60,992 nt of DNA from a virus. The notes under the pieces are model-generated. The model worked only from the letters and a program-made list of their open reading frames with translations, was not told where the DNA came from and did no database searches. The position numbers were made by a program, and so were the translations under genes. The DNA lies in IMG/VR virus record IMGVR_UViG_3300022602_000006, positions 1-60,992 of that record; one strand, 5' to 3'. Shown piece by piece: positions 12,116 through 44,725 of the stretch. Positions within the stretch are counted from its first letter, which is position 1, and each line of letters starts with the position of its first letter.

Positions 12116-13029
12116 TGGAATCAGGCATACGCACATTGATGCAATATTACCCTTGGATGGGAAGGGTGGACGTTAACAAGGATCCGGAAGCAGCGGCAAA
12201 GATACGTTCCAAGCTGATGCCTTCAGAACAAAATCTTGTAGACACTTCTCGGATGGTGAACGTAGGCGACCCTGATGTCTACTACAGTACGTTAGGGGTC
12301 AATTTTCAAAACGCCCCCGACGCTAATAAAAAATTAGTTCCACCTACATTTGAACAAAAATTAAAACTTGTGCCTAGGGATTATGCGATCTCCGAAGCCC
12401 AATACGAAAAATTTGAAAAGCCTAGTACGAACATTTTAGGCATTGGAAGCGGGGCGAGTCCGCAGACTTTTGCCCACGAAGCTAGGCACAACGCGATAAC
12501 CAACGAGTACATTAATAGAATCCACGACATCATGGGTTCTAATTCTGCTCCTCAATATCAATCGAACATAAACGCTTTCTACCACAATTATTTTGTAGCA
12601 CAAAACCCAAACAAGTACAGCAACAAAGATTCGTTTGCTGATAAGGAAAGCAGGGTTCTTGAAGACACTAAGTCTTCCATGCTTAGAGTGGTTCCGGAAT
12701 ACAAATGGGGGAATTCGGATTTTGTGGACACTCACAAACTCTATAATCAGAGTTTTGCCAAAGGCGAAGAGCCGGGTACGTGGGACAAGCTCACTACGCA
12801 TCCGATTGACTACATAACCGGTAATGAAGTTGAAACTTCCAAAGGTGTTCTGCCAAAAACGATGCTGGAAGAACGCAATAAATTTCCATTTTTGAATTTT
12901 GTCGGAAGCGATCCCGGCCCGGTTAGTTCGGGAATGCCCGGTGATATGGAACCCAAATTCGACCCAAATAGAAATTACAAACGCGGTGGTGCCGTAGAGC
13001 GCACGACCCACGATAGGAAAATGATATGA
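12115..13029 (+). CDS. Hypothetical protein with an HEARH motif and a C-terminal GG tag
   Basis: 304 residues. ATG 12115 shares a base with the terminase stop (TGATG) and follows AGAGGG. FAHEARHNAITNEYI near residues 120-134 fits an HExxH zinc-peptidase helix, but no third ligand is obvious. The C-terminus carries YKRGGAVE, one of the short GG tags seen in several virion-region proteins here. Base composition looks more AT-rich than the flanking terminase and portal genes, so this may be a later insertion (a 'moron'). A peptidase or head-associated role is speculative. Confidence 0.7.
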   Translation: MESGIRTLMQYYPWMGRVDVNKDPEAAAKIRSKLMPSEQNLVDTSRMVNVGDPDVYYSTLGVNFQNAPDANKKLVPPTFEQKLKLVPRDYAISEAQYEKFEKPSTNILGIGSGASPQTFAHEARHNAITNEYINRIHDIMGSNSAPQYQSNINAFYHNYFVAQNPNKYSNKDSFADKESRVLEDTKSSMLRVVPEYKWGNSDFVDTHKLYNQSFAKGEEPGTWDKLTTHPIDYITGNEVETSKGVLPKTMLEERNKFPFLNFVGSDPGPVSSGMPGDMEPKFDPNRNYKRGGAVERTTHDRKMI

Positions 13030-15776
13030 GCATTGATAAATCCATCGGCCAAGCTCCATCAGGTCTTGCCAGTCTCACAGACGATGCTGAACCGTTGACC
13101 ATTGAGATCGTTGATCCGGAAGAGGTCAACATCCACGCTGGCCCGTTGGACATCCACATGGGGCATAGCGAACCTGCGTTCGATGCCAATATCGCGGAAG
13201 AAATGCCTGAGTCGAGTCTTGCGTCTTTGGCTTACGACTTGATGGCTGACGTGACCGAGGACATGAACGGTCGCAAGGACTGGCTTGAGATCTACATCAA
13301 GGGGTTGAAGCTGCTTGGCCTCAAGTACGAAGATCGGTCTGAGCCGTGGCCGGGAGCCAGCGGCGTCTACCATCCCTTGCTGATGGAAGCGGCGGTCAAG
13401 TTTCAATCCGACTTGATCATGGAGACTTTCCCCTCCGCTGGCCCTGTGCGTACCAAGATTATCGGTAAGGAGACTCCTGACAAGAAACAATCGGCGGCGC
13501 GGGTTCAGGAGGATATGAACTACGAGTTGACCGAGGTGATGCAGGAGTATCGCCCGGAGCATGAACGACTGCTGCTGGCTACGGCGCTCTCGGGTAATGC
13601 GTTCAAGAAAGTTTATTTTGACCCCGCACTAGACCGGCAGGTAGCGCCGTTCATCCCGGCTGAAGACATCATTGTCCCCTACGGCGCACCTAACTTACAG
13701 GCGTCGGAGCGCATTACGCACAGGATGCGTAAGACGAAAAACGAGTTGCGTCGCCTGATGGTGGCGGGGTTCTACCGCGACGTTGACCTTGGCGATCCGG
13801 TGCAGGTGTTGGACGAGATTGAGAAGCAGAAAGCCACCGAGCAGGGCTTCACGGCATCCATCGACAACCGCTATCAGTTGTTCGAGATGCACGTTGATCT
13901 GGACTTGGAAGGGTATGAGGACACCGACAAGCATGGCGAACCAACGGGAATCAAACTACCTTACGTGGTTACGGTTGAGAAGGGGACAAACACTATCCTC
14001 GCCATACGCCGCAACTGGCTGGAGGACGACAAGCTCAAGCAGAGACGGCAACATTTCGTTCACTACGGTTACATACCGGGATTTGGGTTCTATTACTTCG
14101 GTCTCATACACCTTATCGGTGGTCATACCCACACAGCCACATCCCTCATGCGGCAGCTTATCGACGCGGGTACGCTTAGCAATCTGCCGGGGGGTCTTAA
14201 GGCTCGCGGTATGCGTGTTAAGGGGGATGATACCCCCATCGCTCCGGGTGAATTCCGAGATGTAGATCTTCCTTCAGGTGCCATACGGGACAACATCCTC
14301 CCGCTTCCATACAAGGAACCATCGCAGGTTCTGATGGCACTAATGGACAAAGTTGTGGCTGACGGTCGTCAGTTTGCCGCAACGGCTGAGCTGAACATAT
14401 CCGATATGTCGGCACAGGCACCGGTAGGCACGACGCTTGCCATTCTTGAACGCGTGATGAAAGTGATGAGCGCCGTTCAAGCGCGCATTCACTACACCAT
14501 GAAGGACGAGTTCAAGCTCCTTGCAGCCATTATCAGGGATAACACCCCGGAGAGCTATGACTACCAACCCGAGATTGGAGACGCAGGTGCTAAGCGTTCT
14601 GATTACGATTGTTGCGATGTCATTCCTGTTTCCGACCCTAACGCATCAACTATGGCGCAGCGTGTGGTGCAGTATCAGGCGGTCATGCAGCTTGCTCAGC
14701 AAGCGCCTCAGATCTATGACCTTCCGTTCCTCCACCGACAGATGATTGAGGTGCTGGGCGTCAAGAACGCCCAGAAGATCGTGCCGCTCAAAGACGATAT
14801 GCTGCCGGTTGATCCGGTGTCGGAGAACATGGGCCTCTTGATCAACAAGCCGGTCAAGGCGTTCATGTACCAAGATCACAAGGCTCACTTGCTGGTACAC
14901 AACGCTCTGTTGCACGACCCGTTGATGGCGGCGCAGATCGGACAGAACCCACAGGCTCCTCAGATCATGGCAGCGGTCAACGCTCATATCATGGAGCATC
15001 TGGCGTATCAGTATCGGGCTGATATCCAGACCAAGCTCGGTGCTGTCCTACCCCCGCCGCCCAAGGCCATGCAAGCGGGTTCGGACATGTCGGAGGACAA
15101 CGATCCGGGCTTCCTGCCACCAGAAGAGGAGGTTCAGATCTCGCAGCTTGCGGCACTCGCAGCTCAGCAGTTGATGCAGCAGAACCAAGCGAAACAACAA
15201 CAGCAGCAGATCCAGCAGCAGATGCAGGATCCGTTGATCCAGTTGCAGCAGCAGGAGATCCAGCTCAAACAACAGCAGATGCAGCTAGATGCGCAGTTGA
15301 AACAGGCCGATCTACAGTTCCGTCAACAACAGGCGGCTGCGGACAACCAACTGAAGCAGCAGCAGTTCCAGATGGAGATCCAGCTACAACAAGAACAGCT
15401 TGCACAGAAAAGCAAGATCGACATGTTGGCCGCTGCCTCCAAGGTGGACGAGACTCGTATCAAGAGTCAACAAGCCGACAAAACGCACGAGCTGGAGAGC
15501 GCACGTCTTGGCGTCGAGGTTGCCAAGCACAAGGCAGAACAGCGCATGGCTGGTGCCAAGATGGGCGCAGAGATCGCCAAGCACAAGGTTGACAAAGCAC
15601 ATGATCGTGTCAAGACCGGTGTGGATGCACTCAAACATGCCGTGTCGGTACGCAACGACAACAATCGCGCTGAAGCTGATCGTCAGCATGAAGCCGCAGA
15701 GAATGAAGCAAATCGCCAAGCACAGGCGCAACAGGTTCAAGAGCAACCGCCGCAGGGCGCAGAGGAAAGTGAATGA
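13026..15776 (+). CDS. Portal protein with a long Gln-rich coiled-coil C-terminus
   Basis: 916 residues, overlapping the previous gene (ATGA). The N-terminal part carries the pattern of large P22-like portals: WPGASGVYHPLL, then long helices, then a barrel region near 570-640. Residues about 715-900 are a Gln/Lys/Glu-rich coiled coil (many QQQ runs, encoded by CAG/CAA-rich DNA at about 15160-15400), like the extended barrel helices of podovirus portals but less ordered. It forms the dodecameric DNA gate at the head vertex. It is larger than P22 portal (725 residues), mainly because of the Gln-rich tail. Confidence 0.9.
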   Translation: MSIDKSIGQAPSGLASLTDDAEPLTIEIVDPEEVNIHAGPLDIHMGHSEPAFDANIAEEMPESSLASLAYDLMADVTEDMNGRKDWLEIYIKGLKLLGLKYEDRSEPWPGASGVYHPLLMEAAVKFQSDLIMETFPSAGPVRTKIIGKETPDKKQSAARVQEDMNYELTEVMQEYRPEHERLLLATALSGNAFKKVYFDPALDRQVAPFIPAEDIIVPYGAPNLQASERITHRMRKTKNELRRLMVAGFYRDVDLGDPVQVLDEIEKQKATEQGFTASIDNRYQLFEMHVDLDLEGYEDTDKHGEPTGIKLPYVVTVEKGTNTILAIRRNWLEDDKLKQRRQHFVHYGYIPGFGFYYFGLIHLIGGHTHTATSLMRQLIDAGTLSNLPGGLKARGMRVKGDDTPIAPGEFRDVDLPSGAIRDNILPLPYKEPSQVLMALMDKVVADGRQFAATAELNISDMSAQAPVGTTLAILERVMKVMSAVQARIHYTMKDEFKLLAAIIRDNTPESYDYQPEIGDAGAKRSDYDCCDVIPVSDPNASTMAQRVVQYQAVMQLAQQAPQIYDLPFLHRQMIEVLGVKNAQKIVPLKDDMLPVDPVSENMGLLINKPVKAFMYQDHKAHLLVHNALLHDPLMAAQIGQNPQAPQIMAAVNAHIMEHLAYQYRADIQTKLGAVLPPPPKAMQAGSDMSEDNDPGFLPPEEEVQISQLAALAAQQLMQQNQAKQQQQQIQQQMQDPLIQLQQQEIQLKQQQMQLDAQLKQADLQFRQQQAAADNQLKQQQFQMEIQLQQEQLAQKSKIDMLAAASKVDETRIKSQQADKTHELESARLGVEVAKHKAEQRMAGAKMGAEIAKHKVDKAHDRVKTGVDALKHAVSVRNDNNRAEADRQHEAAENEANRQAQAQQVQEQPPQGAEESE

Positions 15777-18663: not shown

Positions 18664-19575
18664 ATGGCTATTTCAAGAGCACAGCTACTTAAGGAACTGC
18701 TCCCCGGCTTGAACGCTTTGTTCGGTCTGGAGTATGCAACCTACGGTGAGGAACATAAGGAAATTTTCGAGATCGAAAGTTCCGAGCGTTCCTTTGAAGA
18801 AGAGACGAAGCTTTCGGGCTTCAGCGCGGCCCCGGTGAAGAACGAAGGCCAAGCGATTGCGTATGACAATGCGCAGGAAGCTTGGACTGCTCGTTACAAC
18901 CACGAGACCATCGCTCTCGGCTTCTCCATCACGGAAGAAGCGGTTGAAGACAACCTGTATGACTCACTCAGCAAGCGTTATACGAAGGCGCTCGCCCGTG
19001 CGATGGCGTACACGAAGCAGGTCAAGGGCGCGTCGATCATCAACAACGGCTTCAGCACCACCTACACGGGCGGTGACGGACAGCCGCTGTATTCGACGGC
19101 TCACCCGCTCGTCTCTGGTGGTACCAACAGCAACACCTTCACGACACAGGCTGACTTGAACGAGACCTCGCTTGAAGCGGCGGTCATTCAGATCTCCCAG
19201 TGGACGGATGAACGTGGGCTGCTCATTGCCGCCAAGCCTCGGAAGCTGATCGTTCCTCCGCAGCTCATGTTCGTTGCCAAGCGTCTGCTTGACACTGAAC
19301 TGCGCGTTGGCACGACCGACAACGACATCAACGCCCTCAAGGCGATGGGGTCGATTCCGGAAGGCTACAAGATCAACCACTTCCTGACGGATCCAAATGC
19401 TTGGTTCCTCATCACGGACGTGCCTAATGGTCTGAAGATGTTTGTTCGTACCCCGCTCCAGAATTCGATGGACGGCGATTTCGACACCGGCAACGTCCGG
19501 TACAAGAGCCGCGAGCGTTATAGCTTCGGCTGGTCGGATCCGCTCGGCACCTTCGGTTCGGCGGGTTCTACCTGA
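18664..19575 (+). CDS. Major capsid protein (HK97 fold, Mu gpT-like)
   Basis: 303 residues. The motif QPLYSTAHPLVSGGT near residues 139-153, and the following E-loop and A-domain pattern to the C-terminal RYSFGWSDPLG, are typical of Mu gpT-type HK97 capsid proteins. It has a strong ribosome site (GGGAG) and is followed by a terminator, as expected for the most abundant late product. It shows no N-terminal delta-domain, consistent with a separate scaffold gene. Confidence 0.92.
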   Translation: MAISRAQLLKELLPGLNALFGLEYATYGEEHKEIFEIESSERSFEEETKLSGFSAAPVKNEGQAIAYDNAQEAWTARYNHETIALGFSITEEAVEDNLYDSLSKRYTKALARAMAYTKQVKGASIINNGFSTTYTGGDGQPLYSTAHPLVSGGTNSNTFTTQADLNETSLEAAVIQISQWTDERGLLIAAKPRKLIVPPQLMFVAKRLLDTELRVGTTDNDINALKAMGSIPEGYKINHFLTDPNAWFLITDVPNGLKMFVRTPLQNSMDGDFDTGNVRYKSRERYSFGWSDPLGTFGSAGST

Positions 19576-22310: not shown

Positions 22311-22586
22311 ATGGCTACTTTTAGCGTTAATCTCAACGGTACTGCATTCAGCTACACCATCGCTGACGCAGACTGGACGCGCATCATGAATGCGTTTACA
22401 GCGACTGGTACGACCAAGAATCAAAAGGGCGAATCGGTCGTTCCTACCGAAGCGCAAGTTAATGCCAGCATTGCCAACCAGATGTTATCCATACTGATTC
22501 GCTTGCCGCAGCGCCATGAAGCGTTGGCCGCTATTAAAACAGCACAGGCGGCGGTTGCAGCGATCACTGCAACCCCGGTGGCGTGA
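22311..22586 (+). CDS. Small hypothetical protein, 91 residues
   Basis: ATG 22311 with GGAG 6 bases upstream was preferred to TTG 22308. An N-terminal beta part (FSVNLNGTAFSYTIADADW) is followed by a long Ala-rich helix (RHEALAAIKTAQAAVAAI). It often appears to be of the kind found near fibre genes. The stop shares a base with the next ATG. Function unknown. Confidence 0.65.
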   Translation: MATFSVNLNGTAFSYTIADADWTRIMNAFTATGTTKNQKGESVVPTEAQVNASIANQMLSILIRLPQRHEALAAIKTAQAAVAAITATPVA

Positions 22587-22837
22587 TGGCTAAATCTCCT
22601 GCATGGCAGCGTAAGGAAGGCAAGAACCCCAACGGTGGGTTGAATGCCAAAGGTCGTGCGTCTGCCAAGAAACAAGGCATGAACCTTAAAGCCCCGGCCC
22701 CGCATCCCAAGACCAAGAAGGACGCGGCTAGGCGTAAATCTTTTTGCGCCAGAATGTCAGGGATGCCGGGGGCAATGAAAGATGAAAAGGGACGACCAAC
22801 CCGTAAGGCGTTGTCGTTAAAAGCATGGAATTGTTAA
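22586..22837 (+). CDS. Small basic conserved phage protein (DUF6321-like)
   Basis: 83 residues. The core KSPAWQRKEGKNPNGGLNAKGR, the central basic region and the end SLKAWNC match the pattern I associate with DUF6321 proteins of many environmental phages. It is rich in Lys/Arg and Gly, probably flexible and perhaps nucleic-acid or virion associated. Start by ATG in a TGATG overlap with the previous stop; GTG 22583 is the alternative. Confidence 0.7.
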   Translation: MAKSPAWQRKEGKNPNGGLNAKGRASAKKQGMNLKAPAPHPKTKKDAARRKSFCARMSGMPGAMKDEKGRPTRKALSLKAWNC

Positions 22838-22838
22838 C

Positions 22839-24038
22839 ATGCCAAGCGTAAGTAAAAAGCAACACAACCTGATGGCGATGGTGGCTCATAACCCCAAAGC
22901 CGCCAAACGGGTTGGAATTCCCCAGAAAGTGGGGAAGCATTTTACTGATGCTGACAAAGGCAGGAAGTTTGGTGAAGGCGGTATTGCAGACAAGTTGAAG
23001 GGTTATTGGGAAGATGTCAAGCAACAAGCACGCGATGCTATTGAGGCAACCAAGAATGACCCATCCCTTCTTCTTGGTACAGGAATGGCTAAACAAACTG
23101 CTGATGCACTAGTTAGCAGCAACGCTAGAAATGAACATAAACGAGGTGGTAGCGTGAAGCGTAAATTTGCAGATGGTGGGATTAACATTCCCAACGCTGG
23201 TTTATATGGAGGTCGTCCCATGATGCCTCCGATGGCTGGCAATAGTCCCATGCCGCCCGGTATGCAGGGGCAAATGGCTGGTATGCCTCCGATGGCGCGT
23301 CCTTCGTTTGGCCCCAATCCTATGGTCAATAATCCTATGCAACGTCCAATGGTTGGCATGAACCCTATGGGTGCAATGCCCGTTGCTCGTCAAACTTATA
23401 AAAAAGGCGGTCACGTGAAACCGAATGAACTTAAAGGCAAAGCTAAGGAAACGAAGTCGATTGCCAAAGAAGAAATGAAAGCCCTGAAGCGCGGTCATGC
23501 GCCAAAGGAAATTTTGGATCATGAACGTGCGGAGCATAAAGCTATGGGTTACAAAAAAGGTGGGCCAATGAAACATACCAAGCATATGGCGAGGGGTGGC
23601 ATGGGTGCCGCTCGTAAGCCTCGTATCAATCCCGCTGCTCTGGCAGCAATGATGGGGCCACCTCCCAGTGCTGGTGCTGGCCCGATGGCGGCTGGCCCCG
23701 GTGGCCCTCCCGGTATGCCGGGGGCGATGGCGCATGGTGGTACGATCCATCATCACCACGCCAAGACTTCTCATCACCACCATCACCACCACTATGCTCA
23801 CGGTGGCGCTGTCAAGCATCACGACATGTCCGAGTCGCATGGTGAGCGTATCAGCAAGAAGCCCGAAGTCGAAAAGATGATCGGCGGCAAGAAGCGAGCT
23901 AACCCGGATGGTGCCGAGAAGAAAGGCCACACCAAGGGTAAGGTCGTCAAGATGGCTCGTGGCGGTCATGTTGGTAGTCATCACGCTCGCGGCGGCGGTA
24001 TTGAGTCTAAGGGCAAGTCCAAGTACAAGGTTTGCTAA
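22839..24038 (+). CDS. Low-complexity protein with repeated GG tags and a poly-His tract
   Basis: 399 residues. The N-terminus (KKQHNLMAMVAHNPKAAKR) is basic and resembles a common phage small-protein motif. The rest is Met/Pro/Gly-rich and carries about eight short GG tags (YKKGGHVK, HMARGGMG, KMARGGHVG). A natural His-rich stretch near residues 304-325 includes seven consecutive His. The C-terminal KMARGGHV...SKGKSKYK echoes the end of the next protein, with 20 identical bases (23949-23968 and 24843-24862). Probably a structural or DNA-linked virion protein; function unknown. Confidence 0.65.
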   Translation: MPSVSKKQHNLMAMVAHNPKAAKRVGIPQKVGKHFTDADKGRKFGEGGIADKLKGYWEDVKQQARDAIEATKNDPSLLLGTGMAKQTADALVSSNARNEHKRGGSVKRKFADGGINIPNAGLYGGRPMMPPMAGNSPMPPGMQGQMAGMPPMARPSFGPNPMVNNPMQRPMVGMNPMGAMPVARQTYKKGGHVKPNELKGKAKETKSIAKEEMKALKRGHAPKEILDHERAEHKAMGYKKGGPMKHTKHMARGGMGAARKPRINPAALAAMMGPPPSAGAGPMAAGPGGPPGMPGAMAHGGTIHHHHAKTSHHHHHHHYAHGGAVKHHDMSESHGERISKKPEVEKMIGGKKRANPDGAEKKGHTKGKVVKMARGGHVGSHHARGGGIESKGKSKYKVC

Positions 24039-24929
24039 ATGACTAAGAAGCACACCAAAATTAAACGGATGCCGAAATCCAACAAACGGATGAAGCGTCA
24101 TTTTGATGATGGCGGCGGGGTAGACATGTCTACCCTGTCAATGCCGCAAAACATTACGCCAGACTACGACTCGATGTCGTTCGGTAAGGCGTATCAGCTT
24201 GCGAAACAGCTTGGTGACAAGACTTTCTCCTACAAAGGCCAGCAGTACGCTGCTGACCCGACGTTGGAAGCTAGAAATAAAGCCGCCCTTGCTGCTCGCG
24301 CTGCTCCTCCGGAAGTTACCACGATGGGCAGTCGTCCAGATGTCGCTTCAACTAGCGCCCGTGGTGCTGGTGGTCAGTATCTTGACCCTGATATGGCGGC
24401 GTATGCCAGCTCACGTCCATCCGTGGCACAGGCCAAAGCGGCTGCGCTTGAGAATGAAAAGCAGTTTGGTCGCTTGCTAGCAGCCGGTGCGGCTGGCGGC
24501 GCTGGGCTAGGGCTTGGTGCAGCTGCACTAGGCGCTCCAGCTATCGAAGCTATGGGCTTCGGCGGTTCCGAAGGCGCAACGGACGTTGCTGGTGCGGGTC
24601 GCATTGCCAACCTTGACCGTGGCGCTGGGATGATGGACAAGTGGCGCAAAGGTCGTGACTTCGCCGAGCGCATGTGGAAGAACCGACAAGGTGCACAGGC
24701 TGCTGGAAGCGCAGAAACTGCGCCTTCCCCGAATCAGGCGGCGATAGACAGCTTTATCAAACAAATGCAAGCTAAACAAAGATTATCAACAGGTTCGGTC
24801 TACAAAAAAGGTGGCAAGATCAAACCTAAGAAGCCAATGGTTAAGATGGCTCGTGGCGGTCACGTTAGTTCCGCATCTAGTAGAGCAGATGGAATAGCCA
24901 GTCGTGGCAAAACTCGTTGTAAATATTGA
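24039..24929 (+). CDS. Hypothetical virion-region protein with GG tags, 296 residues
   Basis: ATG directly follows the previous stop. It has a very basic N-terminus (HTKIKRMPKSNKRMKRHF), an Ala/Gly-rich hydrophobic stretch near residues 150-175 (AAGAAGGAGLGLGAAALGAP) that could cross a membrane, and the C-terminal tags VYKKGGKIK and KMARGGHVSS, ending in ASRGKTRCKY. Glycine-zipper membrane segments occur in ejected phage proteins, so an ejection role is possible. Unproven. Confidence 0.6.
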   Translation: MTKKHTKIKRMPKSNKRMKRHFDDGGGVDMSTLSMPQNITPDYDSMSFGKAYQLAKQLGDKTFSYKGQQYAADPTLEARNKAALAARAAPPEVTTMGSRPDVASTSARGAGGQYLDPDMAAYASSRPSVAQAKAAALENEKQFGRLLAAGAAGGAGLGLGAAALGAPAIEAMGFGGSEGATDVAGAGRIANLDRGAGMMDKWRKGRDFAERMWKNRQGAQAAGSAETAPSPNQAAIDSFIKQMQAKQRLSTGSVYKKGGKIKPKKPMVKMARGGHVSSASSRADGIASRGKTRCKY

Positions 24930-24943
24930 TAAGGAGATTTGAG

Positions 24944-25117
24944 ATGAAGCATCATATGAAGCATGGTGGTCACGTGGGTGGGCATCCGAAGCATCACGCC
25001 CCGAAGCATCACCCGGAACACATGACCCCGCATACCCACCATCACAAGGATGGCGGTCACGTCCATACGCACATGCCGCACCACGAGCATGTCCGTAAGC
25101 ACATGCACGGTAAGTAA
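24944..25117 (+). CDS. Histidine-rich peptide, 57 residues, 22 His
   Basis: ATG 24944 follows AAGGAG at 7 bases. The whole protein is His, Lys, Pro and Gly, with two GG tags (KHGGHVG, KDGGHVH); no Cys, no Trp. A protein that is 39 percent His would bind Zn, Ni or Cu and change charge near neutral pH. A metal-binding, pH-sensing or DNA-condensing role is plausible but not shown. It is clearly coding: good ribosome site, and tags shared with its neighbours. Confidence 0.7.
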   Translation: MKHHMKHGGHVGGHPKHHAPKHHPEHMTPHTHHHKDGGHVHTHMPHHEHVRKHMHGK

Positions 25118-25120
25118 GTC

Positions 25121-25399
25121 ATGATGCCTTCACGTGGGATGGGGATCATCAGTCCGTCTAAACAGCCAAGGCTGATTAAGCGGAGAGATGCCAACGTCCC
25201 CGTGAAGGTATATGCCGGTGGCGGTAAGGTTAAGCCTTTCTGGGATAAGGAAAAGCCTAAAGGTCGCAAGACCAAACACTTGAGCGATAAGCAGATGAAT
25301 ACCGCTAAAGCTAGGGCAAAGGCTGCTGGTCGGCCCTACCCGAATTTAGTGGATAACGCTGCTGTTGCTCGCAAATGTGGGGGCGGTAAAATCCGATGA
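25121..25399 (+). CDS. Small basic virion-region protein, 92 residues
   Basis: It carries YAGGGKVKPF and a C-terminal KCGGGKIR. In between, KTKHLSDKQMNTAKARAKAAGRPYPNLVDN is a pattern shared by many phage small proteins of unknown role. Start ATG 25121 or ATG 25124. The stop overlaps the next ATG (ATGA). Strongly basic, likely nucleic-acid or virion associated. Confidence 0.65.
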   Translation: MMPSRGMGIISPSKQPRLIKRRDANVPVKVYAGGGKVKPFWDKEKPKGRKTKHLSDKQMNTAKARAKAAGRPYPNLVDNAAVARKCGGGKIR

Positions 25400-26133
25400 G
25401 CTATCCAGTACCACTGACGACGACCAACACTTCGACGTTCAACCTCGATTTCAACACTATTGCTGAAGAAGCGTTTGAACGATGTGGTGCAGAGATGCGA
25501 ACGGGTTACGATCTTCGTACCGCCCGCCGTTCTCTTAGTCTTCTAGTACTTGAATGGGCCAACCAAGGTATCAACCTGTGGACGGTTGACCAAGGTGAAA
25601 TAGTTCTTCAGACAGGGGTAATTACCTACGACCTGCCTGTGGATACCGTGGATCTGTTGGATCAGGTGATCCGTACTGGTTCGGGTAACACCCAACAGGA
25701 CATCAACATTACCCGTATCTCGGTAAGCACCTACGCGATGATCCCGAACAAGAACGCCCAAGGGCGTCCTATTCAGGTCTGGATCAATCGACAGTCGGGT
25801 GCTACTAACGCCGATGGTACGGTTCAATACCCACAGATCAACGTGTGGCCTTCGCCCGATCCCAGTACGCAGTACACGTTTGTGTATTGGCGTCTACGTC
25901 GTATGTACGATGTAGGAACTGGCGTCAATGGCGAAGACATCCCGTTTAGATTCTTACCCGCGATGGTTGCGGGTTTGGCGTATATGTTGTCTGTCAAGAT
26001 CCCCGGCGCTGAGCAACGCACTGCGATGCTCAAACAGCAGTATCAGGAAACTTGGCAGCTTGCGGCTGACGAGGATAGGGAAAAGGCAGCGATTCGGTTC
26101 GTACCACGTGAGACCTTCATAGGTTACAGGTGA
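25396..26133 (+). CDS. Head completion or tail accessory protein (P22 gp4-like)
   Basis: 245 residues. The N-terminal helical domain (FNTIAEEAFERCG ... LSLLVLEWANQGINLW) and the beta part that follows match the P22 gp4-type packaged-DNA stabilisation family in order and length, including WPSPD and FVYWRLRRM. It would bind below the portal and seal the head for the tail nozzle. Overlap with the previous gene (ATGA). Confidence 0.8.
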   Translation: MSYPVPLTTTNTSTFNLDFNTIAEEAFERCGAEMRTGYDLRTARRSLSLLVLEWANQGINLWTVDQGEIVLQTGVITYDLPVDTVDLLDQVIRTGSGNTQQDINITRISVSTYAMIPNKNAQGRPIQVWINRQSGATNADGTVQYPQINVWPSPDPSTQYTFVYWRLRRMYDVGTGVNGEDIPFRFLPAMVAGLAYMLSVKIPGAEQRTAMLKQQYQETWQLAADEDREKAAIRFVPRETFIGYR

Positions 26134-26136
26134 TCC

Positions 26137-26649
26137 GTGCCTAGTCGGTTTGCTTCTGGCAAAAATGCGATTGCGGAGTGTGACCGATGTGGGTTTCGGT
26201 ACAAGCTAACCGATCTGAAAAACTTGGTCATCAAGACCAAGAACGTCACGATCAAGGTTTGCCCCGAATGCTGGGAACCGGATCAGCCGCAGTTGCAGCT
26301 TGGGCTTTATCCAGTCAACGATCCGCAAGCTGTGCGCGAACCGCGACCGGACGTGAGCTACTACACGCCTACCGGTGCGGTTGGTGGCGACGGCGGCAGT
26401 CGAGTGATTCAGTGGGGCTGGAATCCAGTGGGGTACAACACCTCCCTGTTCAGCAGCACGATGAACGGATCAGGGCCAACAAACAGCGCCGTGAATCCGG
26501 GTGGCGGGGTTCAGAACGATCTGGTAGCCCGTGGGGCTATTGGCACGGTGACGGCGACAGGGCCGGTGAATACGGAAGTTAGTGTGACGTATCTGACGAC
26601 TACAGGTTACTTGGGTGAAATAGCGGCGGTTACGCCGGGAGAAGTATGA
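26137..26649 (+). CDS. Zinc-ribbon phage protein, 170 residues, GTG start
   Basis: GTG 26137. N-terminal CDRC (residues about 15-18) and CPEC (about 42-45) form a zinc ribbon, followed by WEPDQPQLQLG, a pattern recurring in phage head-tail gene clusters. The second half is Gly/Ser/Thr rich and beta-like. Located between the gp4-like and adaptor genes, so probably a head-tail joining component. Function unproven. Confidence 0.7.
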   Translation: MPSRFASGKNAIAECDRCGFRYKLTDLKNLVIKTKNVTIKVCPECWEPDQPQLQLGLYPVNDPQAVREPRPDVSYYTPTGAVGGDGGSRVIQWGWNPVGYNTSLFSSTMNGSGPTNSAVNPGGGVQNDLVARGAIGTVTATGPVNTEVSVTYLTTTGYLGEIAAVTPGEV

Positions 26650-26795: not shown

Positions 26796-27049
26796 TGACT
26801 AACAAGTGGCAGGATTACAAGTTCCCTGAGTGGGGCAAGCAGAAGATGGGCGATTACGCTCAGCCTGTAGCCAACACGTGGAAGCCGGGGCGTCAGAAGG
26901 ATACTGGGTATCCGGATGAAGGCATTGACATGAACGACATCATGGTCAAAGGTCGCTACCCGACTGGCACCAAAAAGAAGAAGCTCATGGACATCCGTGG
27001 GTATGGTGCTGCTACCAAGGGTCGCAAGTTCCACCCGGATGAAGACTGA
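26795..27049 (+). CDS. Small hypothetical protein, 84 residues
   Basis: Starts in a TAATG and ends in a TGATG, so it is coupled on both sides. The C-terminal RGYGAATKGRKF is a short motif seen at the end of many small phage proteins. Trp/Lys rich, soluble. Head-tail cluster location only; function unknown. Confidence 0.65.
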   Translation: MTNKWQDYKFPEWGKQKMGDYAQPVANTWKPGRQKDTGYPDEGIDMNDIMVKGRYPTGTKKKKLMDIRGYGAATKGRKFHPDED

Positions 27050-27693
27050 TGAACTTCTCGCAGCTATCACAGGCGATTCAGGATTACTGCGAAACGACTG
27101 AACCGTCGTTCATCCAGAACATCCCGAATTTTATCCAGCAAGCTGAAGAGCGGATCTACAACTCCGTCCAGCTTCCTGCGATCCGCAAGAACGTCACCGG
27201 CACCATCAGCGCCGGTAACTCGTACTTGTCGTTGCCTAGTGATTATTTGGCTGCGTTCTCCGTCGCCGTGTTTACCTACGGTAGCCCCAGCAGTAACTAT
27301 TTGTACTTGCTGGATAAGGACGTGAACTTCATCCGTGAGTCGTTCCCGGCCTCTGGGTATCAGGCTCAACCCCAGTACTACGCGCAATTCCAGCCATATG
27401 TTTACTTACTGGGGCCGACGCCTGATGTAAACTACGGGGTAGAGCTTCACTACTATTATTACCCGGAGTCGATTGTGACCGCTGGGTCGTCATGGGTTGG
27501 GGATAACTTTGAAACTGTTCTTCTGTACGGGTCGCTTCGTGAAGCGTATCTCTACTTGAAGGGTGAACAGGATCTGGCCCAGCAATACGACCAGAAGTAT
27601 CAAGAGTCACTGGGTCTGCTCAAGATCCTCGGGGATGGTAAAGATCGTCGTGATGCTTATCGTAGTGGTCAAACAAGGATACCGGTACCATGA
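27049..27693 (+). CDS. Head-tail adaptor protein (SU10 adaptor-like)
   Basis: 214 residues. The start MNFSQLSQAIQDYCE, an N-terminal helical bundle (FIQQAEERIYNSVQLPAIRK), then a beta domain ending in a C-terminal helix (GSLREAYLYLKGEQDLAQQY) fit the phage adaptor family described for SU10-like podoviruses. It would form a ring under the portal and link to the nozzle. The stop overlaps the next ATG. Confidence 0.75.
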   Translation: MNFSQLSQAIQDYCETTEPSFIQNIPNFIQQAEERIYNSVQLPAIRKNVTGTISAGNSYLSLPSDYLAAFSVAVFTYGSPSSNYLYLLDKDVNFIRESFPASGYQAQPQYYAQFQPYVYLLGPTPDVNYGVELHYYYYPESIVTAGSSWVGDNFETVLLYGSLREAYLYLKGEQDLAQQYDQKYQESLGLLKILGDGKDRRDAYRSGQTRIPVP

Positions 27694-39334: not shown

Positions 39335-39358
39335 TTCTAATTAGTGGTGGGTACTGAT

Positions 39359-41743
39359 ATGAATAAGTATGCCTTTGGTGGAGTAACCCCCGGTTTACCC
39401 CGCCCCCTTGCCCATCATCCGCATACGATGGCTAGTGGCCTTGCGTCTCTTGGGCGGCACGGCGACTCCATGCTGGTGCACATGTCCCCAGAAGAAGTTG
39501 GTGGGTTACAGTCGCTGGCTCAAGCCCACGGCAAGTCATTGACCACTAACCCTAATACTGGTCTACCCGAAGCGTTCTCGCTCGGCACGTTTGCCAAGGG
39601 TCTCTTGCCAACGATTGGCGGTGCGCTCCTTGATGCGTATGTCCCCGGCGCTGATGCCCTGATGCCTGAGATCGCCATTGGCGCAGGGTTGGTTGATAAG
39701 CTGTCGGGTGCAAGCACCGCTGATGCCATCAACCTAGGCATGGGTGTTTATGGTGGTTCTCAAGTAACTAGTGGCATGAACAAAATGGGGCAAGCGCCGT
39801 TGGCTACAGCCTACGCCACAGATGCCGCTAATGTCCCTGTGTCGGGGCCAGCCCTAGAGACAATGGGACAAAGCATGGCGGCGGCTAATGCTCTTACGCC
39901 AACTGAATTCATGCCTAATTCAACATCATTGGATTCGCTTAACTCTGCTGCTGGGGGTGAAGCATCTCAGGAAGAACTTCAAAAGGCTGCGGATGCTTCT
40001 AACACAGCCCCGCAGTACGCCCGAAATACTAGTGGTACTTTCCTTACAAGTCCTACTCGCACTGATGTTATTGGGCAGGGGATGCAACAGTTTGCTGATA
40101 ACCCGTCACAAGCTTCAAAAGATTTTTACAACACCCTTGGCGACACCAATTATCAAAGAATGGCAAAAGCCTACATGATGGCTATGCCCGTGTTGAACGC
40201 TTATACGAAAGCCGCAACACCATCTACTCCTTCGTCATCTCTTGGCGCTTCCACAGGCTATCAGTTTTACGTACCTGCTCCCGGCTACAAGACGCTGTGG
40301 AACCAAGGCACGGTCAATCCTTTGATTGCCAAACTTGGCTATCTCCCAGCGGGTCAGCCAGCGTTCATTGGGGCAGGATGGAACCCCGGCGCATGGTCTT
40401 CAACTCCCGGTGCTAACACCGGCACGGTTCCTTCGGGTACGGGCATGAAGGCTGGCGGCCTTGCGAGTCTTAAGCACTACGCTGCTGGCGGTGCATCGAC
40501 GGCGGCGGGGGCTATACCAACTTCTGTTGGTGAAGCAATTCTTGCAACCAACGCGCCCTTGCCAACAACCCAGATGGGTACTGATCAAGCTACGCTTCAA
40601 GCTGCTAACGCTCAATATCAAAATGGGCTTTTGAATGCGTTGGCTCAGAACCCCAACATGAATTTACCTCCGCCGCCCCCCAACGCTGAAAATAGCTACC
40701 TCAGTAACCTTGCTACGGAAGTTTTACCGCAGCCTTATACAAACCCCTACGCTGGTATGACTGGTGGAAGTGGTAGCAGTGGTGGTGGAAAAAACATTGG
40801 GGAAACCGCTGGAAGTGAAGCAACGGGCGGTAGCGGGAGTTTAGCTGGGGCTGGTAGTGGCGTAGGTATTGATAGTGCGGGTATTGGTAACGGCACTATT
40901 GATACATCAGGGACACAAGATATTTCATCCAACGTACCACTGGGTGATACAGTCCCTGCGACCCCGCCGGGTTCAACACCAAGTTCAAAGCCAAGTTCAA
41001 ACAACTCTGGTTTGAAAGGATTGGCTACTAATGCTTTTAACGAAGTGCAAGGGTTTAGAAGCGCCCATCCTTTCTGGTCTTCGTTGATTGGTGGCATGGC
41101 TCTTGGCCCTCTAGGGGCATTAGGTAATATGGTATTACCGAAAGGGCAGGTGACTGTTGAAGGCGATACTGTCCAAGGTACTAATCAAACTTCAAGCGAT
41201 ACATCCGGAAATGCTCCCGACACAAGTGCATCCAGCCAAAACATAGCGAATCAAGCAAACTCAGATAGCCCGTTTTCCACTACTCCCTATAATCCAGTAG
41301 GGGCTTCGGGTGTAGATCTTGGTATCGGTGAAGGAAGCGGTGGTTTTGGTAGTGATATCGGCGGTTTTGGTAGTGATTTTGGTGATAGCGGAAAAGCGGG
41401 TGAAAACCCAAGAGCGCATGGCGGTTATATCCACGCTATGGCGGCAGGTGGTTTAGGTTCGTTCCCAGATACTTATGCTGCTGGTGGTAAGTTGTTGCGA
41501 GGAGATGGCGATGGAATGTCCGACTCGATTCCGGCAGTCATTGGCGGCAACAGACCGCAACGCGCCGCGCTTGCTGATGGCGAGTTTGTTATACCGGCAG
41601 ATGTTGTATCGCATCTCGGAAATGGCTCAACAGAAGCGGGATCCAAAAAACTCTACGCGATGATGGACAAAGTGCGCATGGCTCGCACGGGTAATCCAAA
41701 GCAGGGCAAGCAAATTAATCCTGACAAGTACTTGCCGGTATAA
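39359..41743 (+). CDS. Internal virion or ejection-type protein with GG tags, 794 residues
   Basis: ATG 39359 (GTG 39344 possible). Gly/Ser/Ala-rich, disordered-like, with tags FGGVTPG, KAGGLASL, YAAGGAS, AAGGLGS and YAAGGKLL. The C-terminal module (GDGDGMSDSIPAVIGG ... ALADGEFVIPADVVSHLG ... KLYAMMDKVRMARTGNPKQGKQINPDKYLP) is shared by many environmental phages in this gene position. Likely packaged and ejected with DNA, or a tail-associated assembly factor; not proven. Confidence 0.7.
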   Translation: MNKYAFGGVTPGLPRPLAHHPHTMASGLASLGRHGDSMLVHMSPEEVGGLQSLAQAHGKSLTTNPNTGLPEAFSLGTFAKGLLPTIGGALLDAYVPGADALMPEIAIGAGLVDKLSGASTADAINLGMGVYGGSQVTSGMNKMGQAPLATAYATDAANVPVSGPALETMGQSMAAANALTPTEFMPNSTSLDSLNSAAGGEASQEELQKAADASNTAPQYARNTSGTFLTSPTRTDVIGQGMQQFADNPSQASKDFYNTLGDTNYQRMAKAYMMAMPVLNAYTKAATPSTPSSSLGASTGYQFYVPAPGYKTLWNQGTVNPLIAKLGYLPAGQPAFIGAGWNPGAWSSTPGANTGTVPSGTGMKAGGLASLKHYAAGGASTAAGAIPTSVGEAILATNAPLPTTQMGTDQATLQAANAQYQNGLLNALAQNPNMNLPPPPPNAENSYLSNLATEVLPQPYTNPYAGMTGGSGSSGGGKNIGETAGSEATGGSGSLAGAGSGVGIDSAGIGNGTIDTSGTQDISSNVPLGDTVPATPPGSTPSSKPSSNNSGLKGLATNAFNEVQGFRSAHPFWSSLIGGMALGPLGALGNMVLPKGQVTVEGDTVQGTNQTSSDTSGNAPDTSASSQNIANQANSDSPFSTTPYNPVGASGVDLGIGEGSGGFGSDIGGFGSDFGDSGKAGENPRAHGGYIHAMAAGGLGSFPDTYAAGGKLLRGDGDGMSDSIPAVIGGNRPQRAALADGEFVIPADVVSHLGNGSTEAGSKKLYAMMDKVRMARTGNPKQGKQINPDKYLPV

Positions 41744-42733: not shown

Positions 42734-44725
42734 ATGTACGACCTTCTTAAATCAGTCAAGCCTCCCCAGACAGCCATGAAGATGAATGCTGTCGAGCAAA
42801 AAGCTCGTCAGTTAAAAGCTCAGAACATGCCCGATGATCAGATTCGTGCAGCGTTGGGACAAGAAGTTTTGGATACAAATGGGATGGTTAGCCCAGCCAT
42901 GTTGTATTCGATGTTGTCTGACATACAGAAAACTAATCCAGCATTGCCGCAGCCACCTACAACGAGCATCGCAGGGCAAGCTCAAAAATTAAATTTAGAT
43001 CGTATGCAGCAGTTGCTGTCGCAAGCCAACCCACCTCCTCAAGTCCCGCAAGCACCGCAGACGGGTCAGCCTCCACAGATGGGGCAACCCCAGATGGGTC
43101 AGCCGCCAGTGATTGGCCCCGGCGCACCACAACCGATGTCTATGCCAACTGCTCATGCTCGTAGCGGTGGCCTCGCTGATATTGCAGTGCACAACATTGG
43201 CAAAAATTATGCTGGCGGTGGCATTGTTGCGTTTGATGAAGGTGGCGATATTCAGTCGGCACTGATGACTGCGAATTACGCTGATGTGTTATCACGAAGC
43301 AGCGAGCAGTCGCCAAACGCAGGTGGCAGACCTGTGCAAGCGCCTCAAATGGTTCCGTCTGATATAGATTTTTCTGCCGCACATGGTGGGCCGGTTAAGA
43401 AGTATTCTGGGCCGTATGGTTCAGATGTGTCTAACGATGCCCCTTATGTACCGTTTGAGCAATCTGTGTTGGGCAACACTCTTAGTTCAGTAGGTAACTT
43501 CTTTGGGAATACTGTACCTAATGCTTTTAACCAAGGGATGCAAGGAGCAGGGGCAGGTTTCTATAATCAAAATGCGTTACAGCAAAATGCCGCAGCAAGG
43601 CTTATTGGTGGGCGAACACAAAATCTAATGCCTCTCCCCGGTGTTGGTTCTGGCCCTTACTTGCCCTCTGCTCCAATACGTACTCCCGGTGAAGCAATGT
43701 CAACTTTGTTTGGCACCGGTAAACTGCCAGACCCAACGCAGCCGTTTGGTAGCCCAAGTCAGTTTAGTGGCCCATTCTCTCCAGCATTGATCCATCCCGC
43801 TGCGGCTATTGCATCGCTTCCGGATGACCACACTGCCACAGATCGAGTTGCAGCGGCAGACGCGAGCGGCCACCCACCATTGGGCAGTATCTGGACTGAT
43901 GAAATCAAAAAGAGACTTAATGATCTTGGCCCACGTCCTACGTTCGATTCTGTTCATGATCAGTTCATGAAAACTGAAAAAGAAATGGGGATTGGCGACG
44001 CCTTCAATAAAGTGTCTGGCATTATTGGCGACGGTCGTGCGCGAGCTGATGCCATGTATAACGCAGGTACTGCACCGGGGGGCTATGCCGATTTAGCTGG
44101 TATGAGTGCCGGACTAAATCAAGCGGGCCTTCGTGGGAATCAACCCGGTTATGTTCCCGGTCTTGCGGGTGTTGCGTTATCACTTGGCAGAAACTTTGCA
44201 GCCCAAGGTGCAGCAAAACAAGAACTTGCTGCTCAAAGAGCGGGGGCGCTTAACAACCTTGACAAGTTGCAGACAGATGCGTTGATGAACGAGGAGGCTC
44301 GCAAGTCGCAGAACCTGCGTACTGAAGCAACGCTTAGCCGTGAAGATCTTAAACAGTACACGAATGAAGTTGATAGCCTCCTGAGAACAGGCATGGGCGC
44401 GGATGAAATTAGGGAGCGTCTGATGATGGCTGGAGTTAGTAAGGCCCAAACAGACATGATCATGCAGGAAAGACTTGAAACTTCAAAACAGAGCGCTGAA
44501 GACCGTCGAAACTATCAACAAGGTGTGATTGCTTCAAAATATCAAATGCCTATAAGCCAACTTTCTAAAATTGTACAAAAACCTGAATATGCAACTGATC
44601 CAAAGTTGCAAGCACAGGCACGGGCGTTGGCGATGCAACTCACCGCTGCTGGTATTGACTTGAGCGGATTTATGCCCGGCGGGGGAGTCCCACCGGGGGT
44701 AACGGTGACTAAGGTACCGTCGTAA
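42734..44725 (+). CDS. Internal virion protein candidate with GG tags, 663 residues
   Basis: Directly after the previous gene. Pro/Gln-rich N-terminal third, tags RSGGLADI, NYAGGGIVAFDEGG and HGGPVKKYS near residues 140-220, then a helical C-terminal region with a coiled coil (about 490-600, LNNLDKLQTDALMNEE). The GGLADIAV...AGGGIVAFDEGG element recurs in environmental phage ejection proteins. Likely packaged internally and released into the cell with the 1885-residue protein. Confidence 0.7.
   Translation: MYDLLKSVKPPQTAMKMNAVEQKARQLKAQNMPDDQIRAALGQEVLDTNGMVSPAMLYSMLSDIQKTNPALPQPPTTSIAGQAQKLNLDRMQQLLSQANPPPQVPQAPQTGQPPQMGQPQMGQPPVIGPGAPQPMSMPTAHARSGGLADIAVHNIGKNYAGGGIVAFDEGGDIQSALMTANYADVLSRSSEQSPNAGGRPVQAPQMVPSDIDFSAAHGGPVKKYSGPYGSDVSNDAPYVPFEQSVLGNTLSSVGNFFGNTVPNAFNQGMQGAGAGFYNQNALQQNAAARLIGGRTQNLMPLPGVGSGPYLPSAPIRTPGEAMSTLFGTGKLPDPTQPFGSPSQFSGPFSPALIHPAAAIASLPDDHTATDRVAAADASGHPPLGSIWTDEIKKRLNDLGPRPTFDSVHDQFMKTEKEMGIGDAFNKVSGIIGDGRARADAMYNAGTAPGGYADLAGMSAGLNQAGLRGNQPGYVPGLAGVALSLGRNFAAQGAAKQELAAQRAGALNNLDKLQTDALMNEEARKSQNLRTEATLSREDLKQYTNEVDSLLRTGMGADEIRERLMMAGVSKAQTDMIMQERLETSKQSAEDRRNYQQGVIASKYQMPISQLSKIVQKPEYATDPKLQAQARALAMQLTAAGIDLSGFMPGGGVPPGVTVTKVPS

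Follow-up and report, generated by a model that had tools for sequence, protein, structure and literature searches.

A histidine-rich phage protein, probably of an undescribed family with a constant genomic position in phages of lakes

The stretch of DNA analysed here (the window) comprises the 60,992 bases of a virus record and carries genes for terminase, portal protein, GroES and major head protein. Among its genes is one for a small histidine-rich protein (Table 1), probably a member of an undescribed phage protein family whose genes occupy a single position in the genomes of lake phages. Within this fixed slot, the gene is an accessory element. Its product would be a small metal-binding protein, located and probably expressed together with the head and neck genes. 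Binding of metal by the protein is considered fairly probable, while its location in the virion is put at an even chance; metal binding as the main role, whether during virion assembly or within the particle, is proposed tentatively, at a little below even chance.

The earlier note described a protein of 57 residues with 22 histidines and no cysteine at 24944-25117, and translation confirmed this description; histidine accounts for 38.6% of the residues (22/57), accompanied by seven lysines and seven glycines. The clear gene with a good ribosome-binding site that it reported was also borne out, as AAGGAG lies 7 bases before the ATG and the gene is under purifying selection, and the two GG tags were found as KHGGH and KDGGH. 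Among the 748 stop-to-stop frames of at least 40 residues in the window, this protein has the highest histidine share, the runner-up reaching 16%. The chance of 22 histidines in 57 residues is p ~4e-25 in a binomial calculation that ignores the pre-selection of the gene and uses the background of 1.6% found in plus-strand frames of at least 150 residues. The histidines are encoded by a mixture of 12 CAC and 10 CAT codons, therefore not by a single slipped codon run. A minus-strand frame covering the gene (24860-25108) looks like a by-product of it, because most changes among relatives are silent when read in the plus-strand frame. A search of the whole window record for the GG-His tag pattern found nothing new.

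Table 1. Features of the window in and around the histidine-rich gene.
Feature	Position	Strand	Remarks
Portal protein	13026..15776	+	phrog_1216
Major head protein	18664..19575	+	phrog_371
DUF6321 protein	22583..22837	+	PF19846, E 1.2e-24; C-terminal residue Cys; same small-protein cassette
Gly/Lys-rich neighbour, 399 aa, 30 His	22839..24038	+	N-terminus matches phrog_16759; C-terminal residue Cys
Seven-His run in the 22839 protein	23772..23792	+	from sequence
GG-tagged neighbour, 296 aa	24039..24929	+	directly upstream of the His-rich gene; Cys 3 from end
Ribosome-binding site AAGGAG	24931..24936	+	7 bases ahead of ATG, from sequence
His-rich protein gene	24944..25117	+	57 aa, 22 His, 0 Cys; translation; purifying selection
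His unit HHPEHMTPH	25007..25033	+	comparable to HPEHIEKHH of relative L103; alignments
C-terminal core HMPHHEHVRKHMH	25070..25108	+	comparable to family HKMHHEHVKAMCG; His on both sides of the Cys position
GG-tagged neighbour, 92 aa	25121..25399	+	directly downstream of the His-rich gene; homologue downstream in 72/123 contigs
Tail adaptor	25396..26133	+	44.6% identical to DSL-LC04 'adaptor protein', note 'Pam1 adaptor protein'
Zinc-ribbon-like protein (pattern reading)	26137..26649	+	CxxC...CxxC in 194/196 distinct homologues
Second adaptor-type protein	27049..27693	+	PF24175 SU10_adaptor

Substitution patterns indicate that the histidine-rich frame is a real gene under selection. Comparison of the window gene with that of locus L006 gave dN 0.09 and dS 1.57, and their histidine codons carry 4.5 nonsynonymous changes over 63.7 sites versus 7.5 synonymous changes over 8.3 sites. 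The dN/dS ratio was 0.05-0.33 over the 15 pairs with computable dS, not exceeding 0.12 in 10 of them and being highest, 0.33, in the most divergent pair, L108-L106. Cysteine (0.80) and histidine (0.74) are the best-kept residues, followed by glycine (0.66) and lysine (0.58), in 924 pairs of 40-70% identity drawn from 56 aligned rows and not independent of each other. Between L078 and L011, 18 of 21 histidines were kept versus 19 of 42 other residues; in a divergent trio histidines were kept no better than the rest (5/11 vs 26/48 in L102-L106, 4/12 vs 21/47 in L108-L106). Overall, these codon and residue comparisons indicate that the histidine codons are kept by selection.

Function-less drift or expansion of a histidine repeat would be consistent with the wide variation of histidine number in the family, from 5 to 25 (the two proteins with 5 being counted from a late start codon), and with the gene being unseen in most adaptor relatives. 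It is extremely improbable given the dN/dS of 0.05-0.33, the mixed CAC/CAT codons, the conserved core and the fixed position, and it was rejected on the dN/dS of the 15 pairs. Homologues that have lost most histidines, which the earlier note regarded as the sign of such drift, do exist (6/59 residues in L189 and L190, 7/43 in L106), but nearly all histidine-poor relatives retain the C-terminal His/Cys core, and dN/dS is low. Because of this retained core and low dN/dS, relatives with few histidines seem to have a reduced site and not to have lost the function.

A scan of viral contigs with the window protein itself found nine loci: five are identical, and the remaining four show 73-95% likeness across the matched region. 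Profiles of the first histidine-rich relatives were used for further viral-contig scans, and the five scans revealed relatives in 123 contigs, with 75 distinct proteins, defined as those differing in the last 36 residues. Their histidine share ranges from 10 to 42%, with a median of 21%. The window protein has no match in Pfam or PHROGs. Twenty family members matched no Pfam family at E 0.1 and no PDB chain at E up to 1; one gave a PHROGs hit at 0.078 and two gave NCBIfam hits, the best at 0.01 to a penicillin-binding-protein model, none of them usable. In annotated phages, tblastn with the low-complexity filter on, which may hide real matches, found none for the window protein and two at E 9 for one relative. 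Bacterial and archaeal genomes scanned with seven relatives yielded none.

A homologue of the tail adaptor is encoded within 2.5 kb downstream of the histidine-rich gene in 121 of the 123 contigs; the other two contigs end 227 and 545 bases past the gene. A 22839-type gene is located upstream in 112 contigs and a homologue of the 25121 gene directly downstream in 72, and the window fits this slot, with its gene upstream of the adaptor and between genes of these two types. Conversely, a histidine-rich frame is present at the same place in 13 of the 68 adaptor-fetched loci with enough upstream DNA (12 of the 80 fetched were too short), and five further loci of this set contain chance histidine-rich frames elsewhere. 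A count by HMM, which failed to detect the group of the window itself, gave 6 family loci among 66 with an adaptor. Among the best 80 loci of a second adaptor-based scan, the HMM detected the gene in at least 9 of the 50 that have 1.4 kb or more of upstream sequence, a lower bound because the HMM is blind to window-like forms. The gene is seen in a minority of adaptor loci (13/68 and 9/50) and is therefore accessory.

In a 104-row adaptor tree, where carriers are over-represented and were mostly fetched via the histidine-rich gene itself, presence or absence of the gene requires six changes, and the histidine-richest form also requires six. Phages seem to exchange the slot as part of a mosaic cassette, because the L008/L082 contig has a histidine-rich gene nearly identical to that of the window (1 of 174 bases different) while its adaptor gene has diverged (96 of 738 bases).

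The group of the window is very likely homologous to the large family, because it shares the genome slot and the profile order; the HMM scores give no support. An HMM of 53 rows, with the window group left out, scored the window protein at -8.8 bits after composition correction and at 41.3 bits uncorrected, a value reached by 181 of 2000 shuffles. Profile-profile comparison of the window group gave E 7e-4 (probability 27%) against the 53 rows and E 1.6e-5 (probability 79%) against A5, with none of 200 column shuffles as high in either case, and E 1.4e-4 (probability 53%) against A2, with one of 200 as high. Should the window group not be homologous, the argument from Cys/His exchange, given below, would be void for it.

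The family protein can be read as a series of three short units following the pattern H-x-x-E-H-V-x-K-H-x-x-G-H. The best-kept unit is the C-terminal core H-x2-H-H-E-H-V-x2-M-C, in which, over 74 of the 75 distinct proteins (one without a pattern fit being omitted), histidine occupies position -5 in 73, -2 in 64, -1 in 57 and +1 in 59, and the cysteine is kept in 64. In the ten proteins without the core cysteine, five (L128, L165, L183, L198, L091) have a shifted cysteine behind the next GG, and four (L002, identical to the window protein, L006, L086 and L087) have histidine instead of methionine before the cysteine position and a further histidine after it; these replacements suggest exchange among metal ligands. 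In L162 (identical to L161) the core cysteine is lost with neither a shifted cysteine nor histidine in its place. One or two cysteines are present in 70 of the 75 distinct relatives, their complete absence being peculiar to the window group and one other protein; the single cysteine of the family, at or near the core end, is absent in the window group, which has histidine beside that position. AlphaFold predicted three short helices for the L153 protein and one for the window protein (pLDDT 59; pTM 0.20 and 0.25), a confidence too low for any statement on the geometry of a site.

In the interval from the head genes to the adaptor, the window encodes a run of small Gly/Lys-rich proteins (22583, 22839, 24039, 24944, 25121). 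The N-terminus of the 22839 protein also matches two PHROGs that carry the label virion structural protein, over their first 41 residues. A cysteine is present among the last five residues in 104 of 156 distinct 22839-type homologues, 139 of 147 DUF6321 homologues and 16 of 26 24039-type homologues; it is rare in 25121-type proteins (2/106) and absent in adaptors (0/212). The near-C-terminal cysteine looks like a tag common to unrelated cassette proteins. The four-cysteine pattern kept in homologues of the 26137 product suggests that at least one likely zinc protein is encoded near the histidine-rich gene.

The earlier note also pointed to a seven-histidine run in the 22839 neighbour, which is real, and regarded histidine-richness as shared by the two proteins. 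This holds for some lineages, where a histidine-rich neighbour is paired with the histidine-richest form, but not as a general trend: the histidine contents of the family protein and the neighbour are uncorrelated over 69 rows (rho 0.09, p 0.46; a few proteins entered twice with different starts). All six tree rows of the histidine-richest class (at least 29%) that could be scored have a neighbour with 24-30 histidines, and in all 78 others the neighbour has at most 10, with the 29% cut chosen after seeing the data and the rows comprising three independent pairs (p 0.25). The histidine-rich members L011 and L091, outside the tree scoring, have ordinary neighbours (9/412 and 11/460 His), and in L009, the nearest relative of the window without the gene, the neighbour has 5 histidines in 392 residues. 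The histidine link between the two proteins may thus be taken as a lead.

A metal site fits the family best, because histidine and cysteine are conserved, the cysteine is exchanged for a shifted cysteine or nearby histidine, and the histidine codons are under selection; a role in assembly or in the particle is suggested by the position of the gene between head and neck genes. The product would act as an accessory member of the small Gly/Lys-rich cassette that separates the capsid genes from the portal adaptor. It would bind metal by its short histidine-bearing units, the last of which, H-x2-H-H-E-H-V-x2-M-C or the all-histidine form of the window, would be the conserved site, and the surplus histidines of the window group would provide added capacity. 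The likely ligand is a transition metal such as zinc, copper, nickel or iron. The metal may be either held in the particle or passed to a metal protein of the neck. The nearest candidate recipient is the zinc-ribbon-like 26137 product; that the histidine-rich protein feeds it is a guess, and metal delivery to a client protein is unlikely. In most adaptor relatives no such gene is seen (55/68 and 41/50 among the matches listed), so the zinc-ribbon-like protein does not need the histidine-rich protein.

The main rival to metal binding, itself unlikely, is a pH-switched polycation, in which the histidine array together with lysines would carry little charge in the cytoplasm and become strongly positive in acid, condensing DNA, clamping the particle or acting on membranes during entry in acid water. 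The computed net charge of the window protein, +4.9 at pH 7.5 and +26.5 at pH 4.8, agrees with such a switch, as do the median swing of 12.7 charges over the 75 distinct relatives, the amphipathic look of the histidine-rich stretch of the neighbour in L094, L213 and L216, and the origin of five family loci from assemblies of Trout Bog (available parts of PMC6344600 and PMC5636890, the latter giving its pH as 4.8), although the habitat is documented for these loci only. Lysine and arginine would suffice for a plain DNA role, yet the histidine and cysteine positions are kept, and the conserved cysteine is left unexplained. A further reading takes the His/Cys units as protein contacts or disulfides tying the cassette proteins together or anchoring them at the portal vertex, with metal incidental. 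The presence of a near-C-terminal cysteine in unrelated cassette proteins (104/156 and 139/147 in the 22839-type and DUF6321 groups) speaks for it and means that the family cysteine may serve a non-metal purpose; the window group, however, is without any cysteine and has histidine around its place, and such an assembly adaptor is judged improbable.

The same ligand evidence that speaks for a metal site in assembly would also fit a host-directed protein that sequesters metal in the infected cell, starving or protecting host or phage enzymes, and its small size and histidine share resemble those of Hpn as described in the available parts of PMC4671568 and PMC5312948. The fixed head-neck position and the GG tags common to its neighbours point to assembly instead, which makes sequestration quite unlikely. 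A takeover gene would more often be expected away from the head and neck genes. A particular form of metal binding, improbable as well, is a particle-borne carrier, whose His/Cys units would take up metal in one cell, travel with it to the next and give it up, either under the action of acid or to a protein of the neck or the host. A second cassette protein would contribute to it, having also gained histidines in several lineages, and the many imidazoles per particle could form a reserve of metal or protons that fits the acid, iron-rich water of bogs.

A bog-lake habitat is documented in the literature for two assemblies only, 3300000439 and 3300000553, published as Trout Bog, and the five family loci L126, L142, L164, L173 and L210 come from them. 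Identical family proteins tie four of these five loci to further assemblies, the loci sharing them being L124, L125, L127 and L128; L143 and L144; L163; and L209 and L211. Assembly 3300027896 is linked to Trout Bog loci in this way and also contains members of the window group. Of 17 other assembly numbers sought in the literature, 16 matched no paper, and 3300009154, which contains non-carrier loci, is named in the list of one paper without a habitat beside it. Several of the linked assembly numbers presumably belong to bog lakes. A tie of the family to acid, iron-rich lakes is possible.

Metal-holding histidine-rich proteins are already known in bacteria. Hpn of Helicobacter binds nickel (PMC4671568) and contains 28 histidines (46.7%), and Hpn and Hpn-2 have some cysteines, in EEGCC motifs (PMC5312948). 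Compared by description in the available parts of these papers, the phage proteins are also small, with a similar histidine share, histidine clusters and some cysteine, but they consist of HHxEHV-type units with mostly one cysteine and are encoded in a cassette of virion genes, unlike the bacterial proteins. The nickel binding of Hpn, at a comparable histidine share, speaks for a metal-binding role of the phage family. The family is like Hpn in presumed metal chemistry, and kinship to Hpn is without support here. HxH iron-binding motifs are known in phage tail fibres, including T4 gp37 and Alteromonas phage R22Y, and underlie the 'Ferrojan Horse' idea (available part of PMC11705849). The two share histidine pairs in phage proteins holding or proposed to hold metal, but those sites are in long fibre proteins, whereas here the protein is free, of about 50-90 residues, and encoded near the portal adaptor; the window member is a 57-residue stand-alone frame near the adaptor and no tail-fibre protein.

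The genomes of DSL-LC04, of the proposed 'Dishuiviridae' (available part of PMC10611076), HTVC023P and CRP-902 have the same order of GroES, capsid and adaptor genes as the window, and their adaptors are 37-45% identical to that of the window. They differ in having 0 or 1 histidine in the frame directly upstream of the adaptor, the comparison covering, among the small genes of HTVC023P and CRP-902, this frame alone. The literature searched, with subscription journals mostly outside it and therefore weak evidence, contained no fitting free-standing histidine-rich capsid or virion protein of a phage; as far as it shows, such proteins tied to virion genes have no earlier description. If metal is indeed bound in the particle, such phages would carry metal as well as genes, and the idea of virus-bound metal could be put to the test in a setting other than tail fibres. 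The natural variation among members, with about 6 to 25 histidines and the cysteine kept, moved or replaced, offers a ready set for ligand testing.

Tags of the form 'xxGGx' are found repeatedly in a number of different window proteins, encoded at 22839-25399, 39344-41743 and 42734-44725, and DGIAxRGKTK-like endings recur in neighbour proteins of many relatives. The adaptors of L153, L140, L174, L108, L095, L199 and L203 comprise 310-315 residues, versus 245 in the window, and carry an inserted stretch of about 70 residues.
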